From: Verrucomicrobiaceae bacterium
GTDB taxonomy: Bacteria > Verrucomicrobiota > Verrucomicrobiia > Verrucomicrobiales > Verrucomicrobiaceae
Direction of reading: 5' to 3'
DNA: 64,000 nt
Assembly: GCA_016795365.1 (NCBI GenBank)
Contig: JAEUHN010000001.1
Span: forward strand, 248,001 to 312,000
Under the pieces are notes generated by a model. The model ran no database searches. It was not told the DNA's origin and was given only the letters and a program-made list of their open reading frames with translations. A program made the position numbers and the translations under genes. Shown here piece by piece: positions 24,345-33,698 of the stretch. Position 1 is the first letter of the stretch. Each line of letters begins with the position of its first letter.

Positions 24345-26099
24345 TCACGAACCCACATCAATCACCACGCGAAAGCCGACGCCGATCAACTGGCGCGTCG
24401 GACTGAGGTGCTCGCGACCATCCAGTCGCAGCACCATCGCGGCGCTTTGGTTGTGGGCACCACCGCGCACGGTCTTGTCCGGCAGTAGATCATTCCACGC
24501 ATCGAGACACCACTCGGACACATTGCCGCTCAGGTCGTAAAGGCCGAGCGCATTCGGCTTGAACGATCCCACGGGCGCTGACCACGGCCACGCGTCGCGA
24601 GTCCGCAGCACGGGCTTGGCGAACGGCGGCACGACGGTCTCGGCTTCCTGCCCGGCGAAGTTCGCCTTGATGCCCTCGCTCGGCGGCGGCCACGAGCGAC
24701 CCCACGAATACGGCGCGTGCTCGATGGGGCCCAGGCCGCGATTGCGAGCTTCCGGTGTCGCGCCGGACTCGGCAGGAAGGCCGGCCGCCGTGCTCCATTC
24801 GACGTCCGTGGGCAGACGGTAGCGCATCGCTTGCGGCAGCGTGCCGCGCTCGTGCTCGGTCTTTGTCAGCCAGGCGCAGAACTGCTCTGCTCGCAGCCAG
24901 TTTACGAGGCAGACGGGATGATCGGACGTGACATTGCCTTCCGGTTTCTCCCACGCGCGCTCGATGTCGTTACCGGGATTCTTGTTAGCGAAAGCTGCGA
25001 AGTCGCGCCGCCGCGTCTCCCAGGTCGAGAACAGTGTCTTCGTTCCCGGCACGGGCACGAACTTCATGCCGAGGCTGTTGGACCACGGGCGCGTGCTCGT
25101 CGCTTCCTGCGGCGACGCAGCGGATTGCTTCGCCTGATGATCGAACCACGCCACCAGCAACACGGCGGCCAGCACACCGAGGGCGATCCACATCACGGTC
25201 TTCCTCGGTGCAAAGCAAATCTCCAGCGCGGCACGCAGCTCCGCGAGCGACTGGACGCGCTTCTCCGGTGCTTCGCTCAAGCATCGAGCAATGAACGCAT
25301 CGACGCGCGTCGGCACCTTCGCCACGCGTGATGCGGGCTCGTAGTGTCCGATCGGCACGCGGCCCGTGAGCATCTCGTGCAGCAGCACGCCGAGCGAGAA
25401 GATGTCCGCGCGCTCATCCACGCTGCCCGCGCCGCGGCGCACCTCGGGCGCGATGTAGTAGGGCGTGCCAAACACATCCGCGCTCTGCGTCAGCGTGAGC
25501 TGTGGACCCGCGTTGTCGCGCAGCAGCTTGGCCAGCGAGAAGTCGGCGACACGCACGCTGCCGTGCTCGTCGAGCAGGATGTTCGCGGGCTTGATGTCGC
25601 GATGCACAATGCCTTGGCGATGGGCTTCGTCGATGGCCCGCAGCACCTCGCGATACGTTCGCAGTGCTTCATCAACAGGCAGCTGCCCGCCTTGCAGCCG
25701 CTGCGCCAGATCACCACCTGCGGCGAACTCGGTGACAATGAACAAGCGTCCTTCCAACGTGATGCCGGAGTCGAGCACGCGCAGCACATGTGGATGATCG
25801 AAGGCTGCGAGCGCCTGCGCTTCGCGCGCAAAACGATCCGCAATCTCGTCATCGTCGGCGAGGTGCGCGGGCAGCAGCTTCACAGCGACCACGGTGCTAT
25901 CTTCATCGCGCGTCGCACGGAACACGATGCCCATGCCACCGCGCCCGATGATCTCATGCAAGGTGTAGCCAGGCACGTCGATCGCATCGTCGGAGGTGTT
26001 CGACTTCTTGAGGAACGACGTGATCGACTTCGCCATGCACGTCGGGCACACGCCATCGACGCTGCGCAAGTGCGAGCCACACGTCGCGCAGGTGCTCAT
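24345..26099 (-). CDS. Membrane Ser/Thr protein kinase with zinc ribbon and FGE/sulfatase-modifying domain (584 aa)
   Basis: Residues 4-21 form a zinc ribbon (CATC...CPTC). A Hanks-type kinase domain covers 45-290, with the glycine loop GRGGMGIVF (52-60), Lys74, HRDIKPANI (166-174) and APE (218-220). The metal-binding DFG is changed to DFS (186-188). A transmembrane helix at 301-319 leads to an extracytoplasmic formylglycine-generating-enzyme-like domain (345-584; GMKFVPVPG, VCLVNWLRAEQFCAWL, YRLPTDVEW, LSGNVSEWC, VRGGA, GFRVV). The start at 26099 overlaps the sigma factor stop by 4 bp (ATGA). Sigma-kinase pairs like this are frequent in Planctomycetota and Verrucomicrobiota and probably form a signalling unit. 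Confidence 0.92.
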   Translation of the reverse strand: MSTCATCGSHLRSVDGVCPTCMAKSITSFLKKSNTSDDAIDVPGYTLHEIIGRGGMGIVFRATRDEDSTVVAVKLLPAHLADDDEIADRFAREAQALAAFDHPHVLRVLDSGITLEGRLFIVTEFAAGGDLAQRLQGGQLPVDEALRTYREVLRAIDEAHRQGIVHRDIKPANILLDEHGSVRVADFSLAKLLRDNAGPQLTLTQSADVFGTPYYIAPEVRRGAGSVDERADIFSLGVLLHEMLTGRVPIGHYEPASRVAKVPTRVDAFIARCLSEAPEKRVQSLAELRAALEICFAPRKTVMWIALGVLAAVLLVAWFDHQAKQSAASPQEATSTRPWSNSLGMKFVPVPGTKTLFSTWETRRRDFAAFANKNPGNDIERAWEKPEGNVTSDHPVCLVNWLRAEQFCAWLTKTEHERGTLPQAMRYRLPTDVEWSTAAGLPAESGATPEARNRGLGPIEHAPYSWGRSWPPPSEGIKANFAGQEAETVVPPFAKPVLRTRDAWPWSAPVGSFKPNALGLYDLSGNVSEWCLDAWNDLLPDKTVRGGAHNQSAAMVLRLDGREHLSPTRQLIGVGFRVVIDVGS

Positions 26100-26812
26100 G
26101 CCGCCACCTCCGCCTGAGCCAGCACTCGCAGCAGATGCATCAGCTCCGCATCCGTGTCCGCCGGATCGATCACCGTCTGCGCCACTTCCTCGCGCAGCAA
26201 GTCCGCCAGCCTTCGCCGTGCCCGATGCTGCTCCACGGCAAAGGTGCCGCGCGCGATGCCGAGTTCCGCGGCGGTGTCCGCGCCATCGCCGTGCTCGGCC
26301 TGCATCAGCGTGGGCTTCAGCTTCTCGAACAACTCCAGCTTGCCACGCTTCGCGTAGCTCTCCTTCATCGCCGCGAGCACGCGTTCCATCACCGTGATTG
26401 CCCACTGCTGATCGTAGTGCATCGCGGGCTCGTCGTTGGCTGGAAGCTCTGGTGCATCGTCACCATCGAGTGCGATGGCTTCAGCCCCACCACCGCGACG
26501 CTGCGTGGCGCGATCGCGTCGCCAGTGCATGACGTGGTAGCGAATGGCCGTCTTCAGATACGACCGTAACGTGCCACGCTCCTGTTCCGCACGCTGAAAT
26601 CCATCGCGACGCAGGAAGGTGGCAAAGAAGTCCTGCGCCACATCTTCCGCCTCATCAAAGCCACAGCCCAGCGCGCGCATGTAGCCCACGACTGGCTGCC
26701 AGTAGAGCGCACAGAGCTGATCGAGCGCCGTGCGTGCTGTTGGTTCATCGCGAGTGCGCAGCACCTTGCTCCATATCGTGGCGGGGAAGGCTTGGGGAGC
26801 AGATGCTGACAT
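26096..26812 (-). CDS. ECF-type RNA polymerase sigma factor (238 aa)
   Basis: Region 2 is seen around residues 30-100 (YWQPVVGYMRALG, DEAEDVAQDFFATFL, ERGTLRSYLKTAIRYHVMHWRR). A diverged region 4 lies near 175-215 (TAAELGIARGTFAVEQHRARRRLADLLREE). An acidic linker of about 30 residues lies between. This matches the planctomycete/verrucomicrobial sigma factors found with protein kinases. ATG 26812 is taken as start; a GTG at 26833 would add seven residues. Coupled to the downstream kinase gene by an ATGA overlap, so the kinase may control its activity. Confidence 0.9.
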   Translation of the reverse strand: MSASAPQAFPATIWSKVLRTRDEPTARTALDQLCALYWQPVVGYMRALGCGFDEAEDVAQDFFATFLRRDGFQRAEQERGTLRSYLKTAIRYHVMHWRRDRATQRRGGGAEAIALDGDDAPELPANDEPAMHYDQQWAITVMERVLAAMKESYAKRGKLELFEKLKPTLMQAEHGDGADTAAELGIARGTFAVEQHRARRRLADLLREEVAQTVIDPADTDAELMHLLRVLAQAEVAA

Positions 26813-26866: not shown

Positions 26867-27193
26867 TCAGAACTCCGGCAAATCGTCCACCTCCAGCGGC
26901 CTTCGAAAACAATGCCGGATAGATAGGATGACCACTCTCTGACCATCGACGGTGAAAAGGATTCGATACTGGCCTCTCCGCTTGTGAAATAGCACCTGAC
27001 GGATCTTACGCGCGAAGCGTTCGCTTTCAGGTGCCAGTCGATGACTCAGGGGTCTGCTGGCCAGCGACTCCACCTTGGCGATCAAGTCATCCCGCCATTT
27101 GTCTGCCGCTCGAGGAGCGCGTTCGCGAATCCATCGAATCACCTCCTCGGCCTCGCGCAGGGCGTTCCGGGTGTATTCGATCTCGTAGCTCAT
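26867..27193 (-). CDS. ParE/RelE-family toxin (108 aa)
   Basis: The sequence shows the ParE/RelE fold: two N-terminal helices rich in Ala/Glu/Arg (NALREAEEVIRWIRERAP, KWRDDLIAKVESLASRP) then a beta-sheet (RKIRQVLFHKRRGQYRILFTVDGQRVVILSIRH). Members inhibit gyrase or cleave mRNA on ribosomes; which applies cannot be told here. The start overlaps the antitoxin stop (ATGA), the usual antitoxin-first arrangement. Confidence 0.88.
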   Translation of the reverse strand: MSYEIEYTRNALREAEEVIRWIRERAPRAADKWRDDLIAKVESLASRPLSHRLAPESERFARKIRQVLFHKRRGQYRILFTVDGQRVVILSIRHCFRRPLEVDDLPEF

Positions 27194-27468
27194 AGCTCGC
27201 GCAAACGTTTGTGCGCCGTGGCCATGGAGACGGTCCTGCCCTTCTTCATGTCATCTAGACCTGCCTTGATGGACTTGAGCGCCGCCAGCTCCTCCTGGCA
27301 GGCTAACAGCTTCTCATAGGCTTCCCGGCCCATGACTACGCCTGCTGCGCGTCCATTGACTGTGAGCACCTCCGGCCGCTGGGTGCGATTCAACCTGGCA
27401 AGATGGGCTTTGGCATTTCGCTGGAAGGAGGTGAGAGGATGGATGTCTTCGAGCTGGATCATAAGCAT
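27190..27468 (-). CDS. Phd/YefM-family antitoxin (92 aa)
   Basis: A short protein with the Phd/YefM N-terminal DNA-binding fold (DIHPLTSFQRNAKAHLARL, PEVLTVNGRAAGVVMGREAYEKLL) and a charged C-terminal helix (DDMKKGRTVSMATAHKRLREL) that would wrap the toxin. ATG 27468 or the ATG two codons later (MIQLEDI) may be the start. Such antitoxins usually repress their own operon. Confidence 0.88.
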   Translation of the reverse strand: MLMIQLEDIHPLTSFQRNAKAHLARLNRTQRPEVLTVNGRAAGVVMGREAYEKLLACQEELAALKSIKAGLDDMKKGRTVSMATAHKRLREL

Positions 27469-27614
27469 GGAATTCCTTGTTAATTCTCATGCTCCCTTTC
27501 TCGCTGCAAATGGCAAGCCCGGGTTTCCATCCATGGGGACAACTTTTTTCGCCTGACACTGTAATCGTCTCCTGAAAACCGGCCATCTGCGGAGTGAACC
27601 CCCAACTTACTCCG

Positions 27615-30179
27615 ATGAAAACGATCCCTCTTCTCCTCGCGCTGGTCCTTCCCGCCACTCTGCTGGCGACCGGGCAGCAGGTGCGCTTTGCGCTGACCAT
27701 GCACTGTGAAACCTCTGGTGGCGGTGGCACCACGGGCATTCCGTTCACGCCGAACTTCATGGGCCTCAGCACCACTACGGTCACGTATGTGCAGTGGCGC
27801 GAGGCCTTGATCAACTTCGCGAAGCAATGCCATGCGCGAGGCCTGCCGTGGCAGTATCAGAGCGACTACAACTTCCTGGAGGGTGTGCGCCGATTCGAGG
27901 TCAACGGAGGCATCACCGGCACGCAGATCATGAACGGCACCTGGTCGGATGCTTCGCTCTCGGCTTACACCTTCGGCGGCGTGACGACATCCACAAACAC
28001 CGGCGGCAAAAACGTGCTCAAGTATCTGCACGAAGATCTCGGAGTGAATCTCGATCCGCATTCGCATGAGTCGAACCCTAGCTACAACTACGCCGACGTG
28101 GCGTGGCTTATCGACGTGGGCTGCGACACCGATGCGACTCAGGTCGTGGGAGGGCATGTCTATGTCACGACGTCGAGCAAGTATCAGAACTGGCCCAAGT
28201 TCATCGGCGGGCTCACGGCAGCGACGCACACGGTGAGCGGCAGTCCTTATGTCTGGACGCCGCACCTCATGATGGGCGGCGGTGGCGACACGCACCGGGA
28301 TGATCCGCACTGCACTGGCCTGTGGAAGCCTTTGGACGCGAACAACTACTTCACCGATGGCGGCTCGCTCGCGGTGATCGGGCACTGGGAGCAGGACTTC
28401 TTCGAGATCGACCGGCTGCTGCGCTCGCTGGAGGACAACTCCTTGCCGCACAACAACAAGCTGTGGACCTGTGGTCGGGTGGTGAACCATCGTGATCTTA
28501 TGACGACGGGCTATCTGGCCATCAAGGTGCCAGCCATCCTCAATACGATCCAAGAGTGGCGGGATGCGGGCAGGTTCCAGGTGAAGACATTTGAGGACAT
28601 TTATTCGGAATGGACCACGACCTACGTGAGCGCATCCAGCCTCTACCTCCGCCCGATGGACAACATCAGCTTCTCGCTGAACTGGCAGGAGTTCTGTTAC
28701 ACCGGCCAGAGCAACAACGAGCTGCGGACGTTACTGAATCATCACGAGAGCCAACGCGTGCCGGTGGATGTGTTCCTGACCACGTGGCAGACGGACATCC
28801 TCGAATCGCAGGCACCAGAGCTGCTCGGGCGCTTGCTCAGCAGTCGCTGGGTGAACGTGGCCTACCACATTCGTGCGCCGAAGCCGTATGCCTATGACAG
28901 CACGAAGACCATCGTCTGGCGCAGCTACACGAGCGCTGATGTGGCCACCTATGAATCGTCGCAGCTCGACATGGTGACGGGTCAGCCTGTGAGTGGAGTG
29001 AGCGGTGGCTTCGCGAAGCTAACTTCGCTCTACGGCAGCACGCCGCGTCTCGTGGGGCCGAATGCCAGCGACTCGAATGCAAGGTCCACGGTGCTGCCTT
29101 ACTTCTACACGGCGGGTGTGCGCCTCATCGTTCAGCACGACAGCAACAACGCGGTGAACTTCGGCACGATGTGGAACTCTGGGACGCAGAGCATGAACGT
29201 GCGACCGGAGAGCTACGACTGGCGATTGATCGAGACCTTCGACACGTCGAAGGCAACCCAACCGATCTCAAACACGCTCGACGATGCGATCACCAACGCG
29301 CACAACGCTAGCGGTGCGCAGTCGCCCTACTTCGTCGGTGTGAAGCTGCACGACAACGACCTCATCGCCACCGAATCAGCCTGGAACAAGATCTACATGC
29401 TCGGCAAGCGCACGCCGAACTGGGATCCCTACACTCAATACAATCCTGACAACTCACTTCGATGGGCGACACCTCTGAGCGCAGGCGAGCCAGACCGCCG
29501 GCGCGCAATCTACACGGGCATCGTCACGAGCGCGGCCGCACGGCGCACCACGCTCAACCTCATGGATGGCCGCGACATGCTGTCGATGCTCGGCGAGGAG
29601 GCTGCGCGACCGATCGGTCTGAGCGCGACGGAAGTCGTCGAAGGCTCGCCCGTTGGCAGCACGATCGCTGAGATCACCGGCGGCGGTGCGGAGAGCGGAC
29701 TTCGCTGCACGTATGCGCTGGTGAGTGGCACGGGCAGCGATGACAACGCAGCCTTCACGGTCAGCGGCAGCAGTTTGCTCAATGCCGTCGTGCTCAGCAG
29801 CAGCCAGCCGGTGCGGCATCTGCGCCTCCGTTGGACCGATGGCGGTGGCAACACCGAAGAGCGCGCTTTGACCATCGTGGTCGCGAGAGCGGATGATGAT
29901 GGTGATGGCTTCAGCGAAACCGACGAGATCGCGGCGGGGACGAACCCGCGCGATTCTTCGTCACGTCTCGCGGTGAGTTCTTCAGGCCTGAGCGGCAATT
30001 CGATGACGATCAACTGGAGCAGCGTGATCGGGAAGACCTACCACATCGACTGGTCCAGCGACCTCAGCGCCTGGACCACTGTGCCGGGCACGCAGATCAC
30101 GGCGACGAGCACCACCACCTCCGAGACGGTCTCCAATGCGACCGGAGCACAGATGTTCTTCCGAGTCGTGAGCGAGTAG
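27615..30179 (+). CDS. Large secreted protein, possible deacetylase-like barrel with calcium-loop C-terminus (854 aa)
   Basis: ATG 27615 opens a signal peptide (MKTIPLLLALVLPATLLATG). The first about 330 residues, with MHCETSG, QWREALINFAKQCHARGLPW, LHEDLGVNLDPHSHES and later HLMMGGGGDTHRDD, are rich in His/Asp/Glu and recall metal-dependent polysaccharide-deacetylase-like barrels, but I cannot match a family. The middle (about 340-650) is unrecognised. A cadherin-like region (about 675-765) and a DDDGDGFSETDE calcium loop (about 775) precede a C-terminal beta domain that often ends verrucomicrobial surface proteins. The gene stands alone, divergent from the toxin-antitoxin pair. Confidence 0.75.
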   Translation: MKTIPLLLALVLPATLLATGQQVRFALTMHCETSGGGGTTGIPFTPNFMGLSTTTVTYVQWREALINFAKQCHARGLPWQYQSDYNFLEGVRRFEVNGGITGTQIMNGTWSDASLSAYTFGGVTTSTNTGGKNVLKYLHEDLGVNLDPHSHESNPSYNYADVAWLIDVGCDTDATQVVGGHVYVTTSSKYQNWPKFIGGLTAATHTVSGSPYVWTPHLMMGGGGDTHRDDPHCTGLWKPLDANNYFTDGGSLAVIGHWEQDFFEIDRLLRSLEDNSLPHNNKLWTCGRVVNHRDLMTTGYLAIKVPAILNTIQEWRDAGRFQVKTFEDIYSEWTTTYVSASSLYLRPMDNISFSLNWQEFCYTGQSNNELRTLLNHHESQRVPVDVFLTTWQTDILESQAPELLGRLLSSRWVNVAYHIRAPKPYAYDSTKTIVWRSYTSADVATYESSQLDMVTGQPVSGVSGGFAKLTSLYGSTPRLVGPNASDSNARSTVLPYFYTAGVRLIVQHDSNNAVNFGTMWNSGTQSMNVRPESYDWRLIETFDTSKATQPISNTLDDAITNAHNASGAQSPYFVGVKLHDNDLIATESAWNKIYMLGKRTPNWDPYTQYNPDNSLRWATPLSAGEPDRRRAIYTGIVTSAAARRTTLNLMDGRDMLSMLGEEAARPIGLSATEVVEGSPVGSTIAEITGGGAESGLRCTYALVSGTGSDDNAAFTVSGSSLLNAVVLSSSQPVRHLRLRWTDGGGNTEERALTIVVARADDDGDGFSETDEIAAGTNPRDSSSRLAVSSSGLSGNSMTINWSSVIGKTYHIDWSSDLSAWTTVPGTQITATSTTTSETVSNATGAQMFFRVVSE

Positions 30180-30409: not shown

Positions 30410-33262
30410 TCACGAGGGCACGAGGTGCGGCTCCACAACTTTCGATGCAGGCGGTGAGACTTGATGGTCCGGCTGCTTGGGGCCGACATCTCGATACTCG
30501 AAATCAGCCTGACCCTTCAGGAGCGGCCAGCCAAGAAGGTGGTCACGGAGCAGGTTGCGAATGGTGGTGGAGTCAGCGTCAGCATGGGTGCTGATCAAGT
30601 CGGGCATTGACTTCGAATAGTGCGGCGGCTCGTAGTCGAGCCGCACGGTTGAACGACGTTCATCCAGCAGCGGCAAGCTGGAACCTCGACCGGGCACGTA
30701 GTCGTAGCTACGGCCATCGCTGGAGACGATGATGTCGGCGGGCTTGAAGCTGTCGAGCGGCCAGGGATTGGGGTAGCGGCGGCGGGGTTTGGCGGGCTGC
30801 GGCTCGACGGGCTTTACGAAGCCGGGATCCAAAGAGACACCTCGCTTTGCCAACGTCGCCTGGAGGTTCTTCAATGCTTCTTCCAATTGCTTCACGGCCT
30901 CTGCCGGAAGCGACTCAGTTCTCAATCGAGTGGCGACTGACTTTAAATCAGTGGCCGCTTTCTGTAGCTGCGCGCTCGAAGCGGACTTCTTCTCATTGCC
31001 TTGCTTCGCCTTTTCAATTGCCGCATCGAGCGCCGGTAGATCGCCGGATTTGACCAAATGGATGCTCACGGGGCCGTGGAAGGACATATTGCCGGTGCTA
31101 GAAATCATGACGGTGGCGTTCTGCCCGCTGATCATTAGCTGGCCGTTCAGCGCGACCACGTTGCCAGTGAACGAGGTGACCTGTTCGGCATCCGGCTTCT
31201 CGTGGTGCTTCATTTCACCATCGTAGAAGACGCAAGCGGAACCAGGCGGATCCATGAGCGGATTACTGAGAGGCACTTTGAAGGGCACGGTGGTGGACTT
31301 TGCAGACTGGAGCCACTCGGCAGTGATCCAGGCAGGTGGCGGGGCAGGTTTCTTGGGCTGGCCTTTGACCGCGCGCTGCCAGTGCTCAGGCAGCACGTCG
31401 AGGCTGGTGACGAACGTGGCTTCATCGGCGTCGATGGTTGCCTTGCCGTCCTTGCCCACGGTGATCCGCCCGTCGCCATGGAAGAACTGGACACGGATAG
31501 GATTCTTCGCGTCGATCAACGCGATGTCCGCGGCGCGTATCGGGCCGGCTGAAAGGTTCTGTGCGTTGGGATGATAAAGGATCGTGGTGCCTGGGTTGGC
31601 GGGCACGCTGAGACGGCTGGCGGTTTCGAGCCACTGCTGGTCGAGCGCGTCGATCCAGTTCACGGCTTTCATCTTCTTCAGCGCTCCTTCCATGATCTCC
31701 CGCGCGATGGGCGCGGCAACGGCTCCGCCGCTCACGCTTTCGCCGAAGCTGCCTTCATACACGACGACGACGGCGAGCTTCGGGTTGTCCGCAGGAGCGA
31801 AGCCGGTGAACCAGGCGAGCCACTTGCTCTTGTCGCGATTCTCCCCGACGACCCACTGCGCGCTGCCGGTTTTGGCGGCGACCGTGATGCCTTCGATCTG
31901 AGCTGCATGGCTGGTGCCGCCGTCGCCTTGCACGCTCTCGATCATGCCGCGCTTCACGAGGTCGAGGTGCTCAGGCCTGAGCCCTTTCGCGATGAGGTCG
32001 GTGCGCACCTGGGCGGGCTCGCGGGTCTTGAGCAGGCGGGGTGCGAGAACTTTGCCGCCATTGCTGATCGCGGCGGTGGCGACGGCGACTTGCAGCGGTG
32101 TGGCGGTGGTGATTTGCCCAATCGACAGACTAGCCAGCACGCCAGGCAGCATGTTGTGGCCCTGCGTTTGTTGGTAGTAGGCGTCGGTGGGGACAAACCC
32201 CTTGTTCTCCTGCAAGGGCAGACCGGTGGGCTGGCCGAAGCCGAGGTCGCTGGCCATGCTGGTGATGGGGTCGGCTCCGGTCTTGAGCGCGGCCTGGTAG
32301 AACCAGGTGTTGCACGAGCGCTTGATGGCGGTGACGAGGTCGATGGGGCCTTCGGGAACCTTGCTCCAGTTGCGAAAGGTGCGGTCGCCGATCTTAAACT
32401 CGAGCGAGCCATCGAAGATCGATTTCTCGTCAATCGCGCCGCTCTTCAATCCGGCGAGCGCGGTGACGAGCTTGAAGGTGGACGCGGGGTAGTAGGGACG
32501 GCTGAAAGCCCGGCCAACGAATGGATGCGTGGGATCCTTGAGCACGGCCAGGAATCGCTCTTCCTTGGTGAAGTGGACGAGTTCATTCGGATTGAACGTG
32601 GGCCACGAGGCGAGGGCGAGGATGTCGCCGGTGTTCGGATCGAGCACGACGGCGGCTCCGCCTCTGGGGGCGCGCTTCTGGAGTATGCTCTCGGCGAGGG
32701 CCTGGATGTTGGCGTCGAGCGTGAGATGCACGTCTTGTTTGACAGCGAGCGTGGCTTCTTGTGACAGCTCAATACCTGCACTTCCACCGCAGACAGGCTT
32801 TGGCTGTGGAGGTGAGAAGCCTTTCGCAAAGCCGAGCACCTGCGCGCCAAGAGTTTGCTTCGGGTAACGTCGCTCACCGATGCTGGGGCTTTCGGCGAGG
32901 ACGACGCCGTTGCGGTCCAAGATGCGACCGCGCGGCGGGGCATCGGCTTGAACACGAGGCTGAATGCCGAAGCCAGAGGCGAGAATGATCAGGGTGATCA
33001 AGGGCCAGGCATTGAGCCGCATCGGAGCGGGCGGGGGCAACAGCTTCCGTGGCTCGGCTTTCCCCGCCTGCCACAGACCGGCCACCGGCCACGCGACACA
33101 CGCCACGAGAGCGAGCATCGCCAGCAGATGCCGGGCCTGCGGACTGCGGAAGAACCATCGGCCAACGATCAGCGCGAGAGCAATGGCGGTGATCTGCCAC
33201 AGAGAATGCAAGAGCATCCAGCCGATGCGCTCGGCGAGCGGGAAGGTGAGGAGCGTGTTCAT
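30410..33262 (-). CDS. BlaR1-like membrane region fused to class B penicillin-binding protein (950 aa)
   Basis: Residues 10-65 form two helices very like the start of BlaR1/M56 proteins (GWMLLHSLWQITAIALALIVG, HLLAMLALVACVAWP). There is no HExxH metallopeptidase. A third helix (83-100) leads directly to a class B PBP: RGRILDRNG (111-119), a dimerisation region with TLDANIQ, and a transpeptidase domain with active-site S261TFK264, S316CN318 and K464TG466. Residues 560-950 are an unrecognised C-terminal extension with beta-rich parts, a helical AQLQKAATDLKSVATRL segment and a proline-rich end. The start overlaps the blaI stop by 4 bp (ATGA). In known systems BlaR1 binds beta-lactam and cleaves BlaI; here the sensor module is a complete transpeptidase, so signalling must work differently. 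Confidence 0.88.
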   Translation of the reverse strand: MNTLLTFPLAERIGWMLLHSLWQITAIALALIVGRWFFRSPQARHLLAMLALVACVAWPVAGLWQAGKAEPRKLLPPPAPMRLNAWPLITLIILASGFGIQPRVQADAPPRGRILDRNGVVLAESPSIGERRYPKQTLGAQVLGFAKGFSPPQPKPVCGGSAGIELSQEATLAVKQDVHLTLDANIQALAESILQKRAPRGGAAVVLDPNTGDILALASWPTFNPNELVHFTKEERFLAVLKDPTHPFVGRAFSRPYYPASTFKLVTALAGLKSGAIDEKSIFDGSLEFKIGDRTFRNWSKVPEGPIDLVTAIKRSCNTWFYQAALKTGADPITSMASDLGFGQPTGLPLQENKGFVPTDAYYQQTQGHNMLPGVLASLSIGQITTATPLQVAVATAAISNGGKVLAPRLLKTREPAQVRTDLIAKGLRPEHLDLVKRGMIESVQGDGGTSHAAQIEGITVAAKTGSAQWVVGENRDKSKWLAWFTGFAPADNPKLAVVVVYEGSFGESVSGGAVAAPIAREIMEGALKKMKAVNWIDALDQQWLETASRLSVPANPGTTILYHPNAQNLSAGPIRAADIALIDAKNPIRVQFFHGDGRITVGKDGKATIDADEATFVTSLDVLPEHWQRAVKGQPKKPAPPPAWITAEWLQSAKSTTVPFKVPLSNPLMDPPGSACVFYDGEMKHHEKPDAEQVTSFTGNVVALNGQLMISGQNATVMISSTGNMSFHGPVSIHLVKSGDLPALDAAIEKAKQGNEKKSASSAQLQKAATDLKSVATRLRTESLPAEAVKQLEEALKNLQATLAKRGVSLDPGFVKPVEPQPAKPRRRYPNPWPLDSFKPADIIVSSDGRSYDYVPGRGSSLPLLDERRSTVRLDYEPPHYSKSMPDLISTHADADSTTIRNLLRDHLLGWPLLKGQADFEYRDVGPKQPDHQVSPPASKVVEPHLVPS

Positions 33263-33648
33263 GATTTGCCACGAGTTTGCTGATCCAGGAGCTTCTTGAT
33301 CTCAGCGGCTTCGGCCTTGCTGAGCTTCGAATTGCCGAGCGCTTGCAGCACGAGTTCGCTCACGCTGCCCTGGAAGAGCCGGTCGAGCAGATCGCCCACC
33401 ATTTGCTTCTTCGTCGTGTCCGGTGGCACAGCGGGGCTGTAGCTGTGGGTGCGGTCTGCATCGTCACGAATGACGAGTCCCTTGTCCGTCATGATCTGGA
33501 AAAACTTGAGCACCGTGGTGTAGGCGAGCGGTGGATCGCGCTCCTCGTTCAAGGTCTCCATCACCTCGCGCACGGTGGCGGGATGCTTTCTCCAGAGCGC
33601 GCGCAGGATGGCGAGTTCGGACTCGGTCGGCTTGGGCAAATCGGGCAT
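33259..33648 (-). CDS. blaI: BlaI/MecI-family transcriptional repressor (129 aa)
   Basis: A winged-helix repressor of the penicillinase repressor family: PTESELAILRALWRKHPATVREVMETL (helices 1-2), LAYTTVLKFFQIMTDKGLVIR (recognition helix and wing), and a C-terminal dimerisation helix with KQMVGDLLDRLFQGS. Length fits the family. Homologues bind inverted repeats at their own promoter as dimers. A 41-bp dyad directly upstream of the ATG is a strong operator candidate, and the next gene encodes the BlaR-like PBP fusion. A candidate promoter places transcription start at or next to the ATG. Confidence 0.93.
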   Translation of the reverse strand: MPDLPKPTESELAILRALWRKHPATVREVMETLNEERDPPLAYTTVLKFFQIMTDKGLVIRDDADRTHSYSPAVPPDTTKKQMVGDLLDRLFQGSVSELVLQALGNSKLSKAEAAEIKKLLDQQTRGKS

Positions 33649-33654
33649 TTGGCG

Positions 33655-33698
33655 GTTCTACTAATTTCTTCGTTTTTAGTCAACGAATAAATTAGTAG
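33655..33698 (-). promoter_or_regulatory. 41-bp dyad overlapping the blaI promoter (probable BlaI operator)
   Basis: CTACTAATTTCTTCGTT (33658-33674) pairs with 33682-33698 with one mismatch in 17 bp and a 7-base centre. On the minus strand TTGACT (33683-33678) and TAGAAC (33660-33655), 17 bp apart, look like -35 and -10 elements. That puts the start at about 33648-33649, the first base of blaI. The element is strongly AT-rich in GC-rich DNA and lies between divergent genes. Confidence 0.65.

Follow-up and report, generated by a model that had tools for sequence, protein, structure and literature searches.

A probable BlaI-linked receptor remnant with a PBP2-type transpeptidase in a Verrucomicrobiaceae bacterium, and the M56 receptors related to it

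Operon, operator, and flanking genes

The window, the whole analyzed stretch of 64,000 nucleotides from a Verrucomicrobiaceae bacterium, carries on its minus strand a two-gene operon of blaI and a gene for a 950-aa protein, in which the N-terminal helices of an M56 receptor are joined to a class B penicillin-binding protein (PBP). The start codon of the second gene overlaps the blaI stop codon by four bases (ATGA). A sequence-only reading of the locus had described this overlap, an FtsI/PBP2-type protein with intact SxxK, SxN, and KTG motifs, and the lack of an HExxH protease, and all three observations were confirmed. The features are positioned as follows.

33660..33696 (no strand): predicted tandem operator, two AC[GT]AA-N4-TT[AC]GT dyads 9 bp apart, from the sequence
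33259..33648, minus strand: blaI, BlaI/MecI-family repressor, 129 aa (Pfam Penicillinase_R PF03965, E 1e-26)
30410..33262, minus strand: receptor remnant, 950 aa, M56 N-terminal helices, class B PBP (PBP2-type), and C-terminal tail
33161..33217, minus strand: helix 1 of the M56 receptor (residues 16-34), from hydropathy; homologous to the M56 N terminus of the fusions L058, L070, L071, and L157
33071..33127, minus strand: helix 2 of the M56 receptor (residues 46-64), from hydropathy and alignment with the same-genus ortholog
about 33039-33045, minus strand: deletion junction, from the alignment with the same-genus genome G009
32957..33013, minus strand: hydrophobic segment from behind the protease, equivalent to BlaR1 helix 4 (residues 84-102), identical to G009
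32738..32941, minus strand: shortened PBP dimerisation/pedestal remnant (residues 108-175), partial PF03717
31673..32737, minus strand: class B PBP2-type transpeptidase domain (residues 176-530), from PF00905, pbp2_mrdA, and 7kis
32471..32482, minus strand: SxxK motif, STFK (residues 261-264), from the sequence
32309..32317, minus strand: SxN motif, SCN (residues 316-318), from the sequence
31865..31873, minus strand: KTG motif (residues 464-466), from the sequence
30413..31672, minus strand: C-terminal region (residues 531-950), found only within the genus by Pfam scan and homology search

The BlaI protein possesses the Penicillinase_R domain (94 bits for PF03965, cut-off 22.6) and shares 93% identity with its counterpart in G009 (MAG KLAP44), the sole other genome found for the genus and the one on which the same-genus comparison is based. 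Pfam Transpeptidase PF00905 spans residues 202-525 of the 950-aa protein (E 3.6e-66), which also matches the solved MrdA structure 7kis (E 2e-49). The E value was 3e-100 for NCBIfam pbp2_mrdA versus 8e-10 for class D, indicating that the sensor is not of the class D type. Judged from the motif STFK, the serine and the lysine of SxxK are both present. A full dimerisation/pedestal domain was not recognized, as PF03717 gave a partial match of 20.6 bits (cut-off 24.4), and the Pfam scan of the window protein recognized neither an M56 domain nor HExxH. The hydropathy of the helix-4 segment is borderline, below the calling threshold used; if this segment spans the membrane, the loss of one helix would switch the PBP to the other membrane side.

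Structure prediction of the 950-aa protein from a two-row alignment yielded a pLDDT of 32 and no usable model, so that the packing of the helices was judged by homology. Residues 1-72 align with the N terminus of the 1292-aa protein of G009, where they lead into a recognized M56 domain, and the M56-type N-terminal helices also match three other fusions, L070, L071, and L157 (phmmer, E 1.5e-8 to 3.6e-5). The proposed BlaR1/M56 origin of helices 1 and 2 was thus borne out.

The C-terminal 420 residues gave no credible Pfam match, and counterparts were found in the same genus only. In this region (30410-31672, minus strand), the two species of the genus differ by an insertion or deletion, and the tail of the G009 protein has a weak internal repeat with the motif PxWxxxxWL. 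The gene beyond the 950-aa gene (27594-30179) is convergent, and the operon contains no further gene. Also present in the window are a gene pair for a ParE-type toxin and a Phd/YefM-type antitoxin (26867-27468, minus strand) and a gene (24345-26405, minus strand) whose product looks, from its sequence, like a Ser/Thr kinase with a formylglycine-enzyme-like domain behind it.

The tandem operator is located upstream of blaI inside a 41-bp near-palindrome (about 33658-33698) and overlaps the sequence TTGACT, a possible −35 box. An exact search of the window genome for the tandem operator gave one hit, before this blaI, and the same kind of search with a single dyad led to this place only. One partial match elsewhere in this genome contained three mismatches and was discarded, since such matches were no more frequent than in the control. 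The operator of G009 differs from that of the window by one base outside the dyad positions, and tandem dyads with 8-9 bp spacing were also present at L070, L071, and L157. In G009, G013, and G001, the dyad occurred at the receptor locus only. G006 contains two additional operator-like sites; both fall within reading frames, one of them a MutL-like gene, and were for this reason not counted as regulatory. The other lineage of M56 receptors possesses a different dyad, which was searched for in four genomes and found at the receptor locus only in each of them.

Across the nine genomes examined, a matching BlaI operator outside of coding sequences thus appeared only at the receptor's own operon, with the qualification that such searches would miss weaker sites, and no gene for a beta-lactamase or PBP2a was found under the operator. 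The module therefore seems to control its own expression, as far as can be judged from operator sequences. The tandem operator, which has no other exact match in the genome, also fits the control of the PBP gene by the window BlaI that had been suggested before.

The same-genus ortholog and the missing protease

The same blaI operon is present in G009, and its second gene, L058, encodes 1292 aa with a complete M56 protease (Pfam M56, E 2.3e-27; HExxH at residue 234). The order of its parts is M56 helices 1-3, the HExxH protease, helix 4, the PBP2-type sensor, and a tail without a Pfam match. Compared to L058, 756 nt (252 codons) are missing in frame from the window gene, which removes helix 3 and the protease. 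Both proteins are nearly identical up to residue 72, and the near-identity resumes at residue 74 (LLPPPAPMRL...); in G009, the M56 domain is located between these two stretches. Around the operon, the two genomes are collinear, with BLASTN alignments on either side of the gap that have 93% identity over 3360 bp and 85% identity over 2026 bp. The window copy retains blaI, the operator, helices 1 and 2, and the helix-4 segment, together with the entire PBP and the larger part of the tail.

The deletion is known from one assembly, and one same-genus genome is available for comparison, so that the M56 segment may be present in the organism but dropped from the contig by an assembly or binning artefact. 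This is improbable: the gap keeps the reading frame, its two flanks match one and the same ortholog in the expected order, and the contig has a length of 349 kb. There is no direct repeat at the junction; the longest word shared near the breakpoints comprises 8 bp and is located away from it. Because the junction contains no repeat that an assembler could collapse, a collapse is unlikely.

Receptors with M56 and PBP domains, and the state of the window copy

A profile was built from the M56-PBP fusions and run against 388 genomes of the phylum, with two candidates scored per genome, a search that may miss rarer fusions. Among the matches listed, full-length fusions were confined to the same family and to two genomes of a neighboring family of the same order. 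At least 16 distinct fusions other than the window gene were read individually (L058-L068, L070, L071, and L157-L159). In all 16, blaI is located directly upstream, with gaps of −4 to 205 bp, so that the homologues do neighbor blaI, as the sequence-only reading had supposed. All 16 also keep HExxH; the window gene alone is without it, and among the PBP genes examined, a blaI without an M56 domain occurs in the window only. L069 and L072, which contain no HExxH, were considered as protease-less relatives and rejected, since there is no blaI upstream in the loci examined and both are outside the fusion clades in the tree.

An ordinary cell-wall PBP with an ordinary anchor, placed beside blaI by chance, would also contain a PBP2-type domain with intact motifs. 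However, helices 1 and 2 are continuous with the M56 domain in the ortholog, which already contradicts this explanation, and blaI adjoins every fusion. Moreover, the window genome separately encodes FtsI, an mre-linked PBP2, and a second PBP2-like protein, leaving such a chance neighborhood hardly credible.

The window gene is quite probably the deletion derivative of a BlaR1-type receptor that has lost its output, and not a protease-free design, because the same-genus ortholog and all other fusions have an intact HExxH M56 domain. For the same reason, the suggestion of protease-free signaling with its own route for BlaI release was not supported. A protease-less ancestor of the window type is unlikely, since the window protein keeps M56 helices for which no other role is evident, and the protease is present in all other fusions. 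In an intact module, the state of the PBP2-type sensor would be read outside the membrane, either acylation by beta-lactams or binding of a substrate or partner. The sensor would then activate the M56 protease, which would cleave BlaI and de-repress its own two-gene operon. Regulation of the PBP by its own acylation, as proposed before, may thus occur in the intact ortholog, where BlaI would, however, be released by the protease and not by an additional route. In the window genome, where that output is missing, BlaI should keep expression of the operon low and autoregulated, and the PBP would be either the relic of a system in decay or an additional PBP with weak expression.

The window copy shows no sign of decay. 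The frame of 950 codons is open and all three active-site motifs are intact. The pairwise dN/dS of the PBP transpeptidase region is 0.35, a value that cannot date the constraint to the time after the deletion, and the branch lengths in the transpeptidase tree are alike, 0.14 for the window and 0.13 for L058. Accordingly, either the deletion could have happened recently or the PBP could have kept a use.

Alternatively, the protease-less protein may be a working, BlaI-controlled extra PBP2, with repression relieved without proteolysis, for example by a peptidoglycan fragment binding to BlaI or by one of six other M56 receptors encoded in the genome. The intact STFK, SCN, and KTG motifs, the branch that is not accelerated, the pairwise dN/dS, and the conserved operator agree with such a function. 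In Bacillus licheniformis, a cytoplasmic peptidoglycan dipeptide binds to BlaI/MecI and destabilises its complex with DNA (PMC3305447), and six other BlaI-M56 pairs are available in the genome. On the other hand, the protease-less form was found in one genome only, and other sequences are located upstream of the six other blaI genes. In Staphylococcus aureus, BlaR1 has a Nout/Cout topology and a class D-related sensor, and the established release step is direct cleavage of BlaI by its M56 domain (PMC9834060). A working extra PBP2 is therefore considered unlikely, and the deletion derivative remains the preferred explanation.

Origin of the sensors and comparison with known systems

In the tree of the transpeptidase domains, a clade of 15 fusions is placed next to the mre-linked PBP2. 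The window protein and L058 nest instead with the second, uvrC-near PBP2-like protein of the window genome (100/97), to which the window PBP is 55% identical; MreB, MreC, MreD, and UvrC were identified by reading their sequences. This second PBP2-like protein (L186/L051) has 791 aa, exists besides the mre-linked PBP2, and is conserved across the family. A single common clade of all fusions was rejected (p-AU 2.3e-5, with long branches present), and according to these sequence trees, PBP2-type sensors were acquired on two or more occasions.

In the M56 and BlaI trees, L058, together with the window BlaI in the latter, groups with L070, L071, and L157 (100/99 and 95/96), the PBPs of which fall into the other clade of 15 fusions. 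Because the placements of receptor and sensor disagree, both parts have probably recombined, although the M56 tree is small with long branches and its details are less sure. The SxxK lysine is absent from all 15 fusions of the first clade, five of which keep the serine, so that the usual acylation should not be expected for these sensors, as judged from their motifs. The window protein and L058 keep STFK and SCN; the third motif of the former is KTG and that of the latter KSG. In L066 and L067, all three PBP active-site motifs are lost and the M56 HExxH is intact.

The window genome contains seven blaI and six M56 genes. Six of the BlaI proteins adjoin an M56 gene, and the seventh is that of the window. 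The six M56 proteins (L014-L019) are intact and carry unrelated tails: LptA/LptD-N plus SurA/PpiC, ExbD/TolR, a secretin in two of them, carboxypeptidase-regulatory-like repeats, and a tail without a Pfam match. This suggests that M56 receptors may commonly use envelope proteins as sensors, an idea that the LptA/LptD-N plus SurA/PpiC, ExbD/TolR, and secretin tails fit. Tentatively, and with somewhat less than even confidence, verrucomicrobial M56 receptors may sense with copies of envelope-building proteins. The PBP2-type copies, captured at least twice, would mostly be catalytically dead pseudo-PBPs that report the status of wall synthesis and not beta-lactams, with BlaI controlling its own operon only.

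BlaR1 and MecR1 are the model for bacterial beta-lactam sensing. If the proposal is true, PBP2-derived sensors that have lost the lysine in 15 of the 16 intact cases would mean that the M56/BlaI switch also watches wall synthesis. Receptors with a dead site should then not bind penicillin covalently, but the window lineage should. The window copy represents a receptor of this kind with a naturally deleted protease. Its parts are ordinary and the family is the real finding: the receptors composed of M56 and a class B PBP are apparently an undescribed variant, confined among the matches listed to one family of the Verrucomicrobia and one neighboring family, and no earlier description was found in a literature search of incomplete coverage.

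Like BlaR1/MecR1 with BlaI/MecI of staphylococci and B. licheniformis, the system is a two-gene module with a BlaI-family repressor and a dyad operator. The intact ortholog shares with them the M56 receptor, the N-terminal helices, and the extracellular sensor with a penicillin-binding fold. The sensor of BlaR1/MecR1 is of the class D type, but the sensor here is a class B PBP2-type transpeptidase; the long C-terminal tail and, in the window, the deleted protease are further differences. The mreBCD-linked MrdA/PBP2 and the uvrC-adjacent PBP2-like protein share the transpeptidase domain with STFK, SCN, and KTG, and the window protein differs from both by the anchor derived from M56, the shortened pedestal, the control by BlaI, and the extra C-terminal region. 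The 16 other fusions resemble the window in the upstream blaI, the M56 N terminus, and the class B PBP sensor. They keep the protease that the window copy has lost, and 15 of them are without the SxxK lysine that L058 and the window protein retain.
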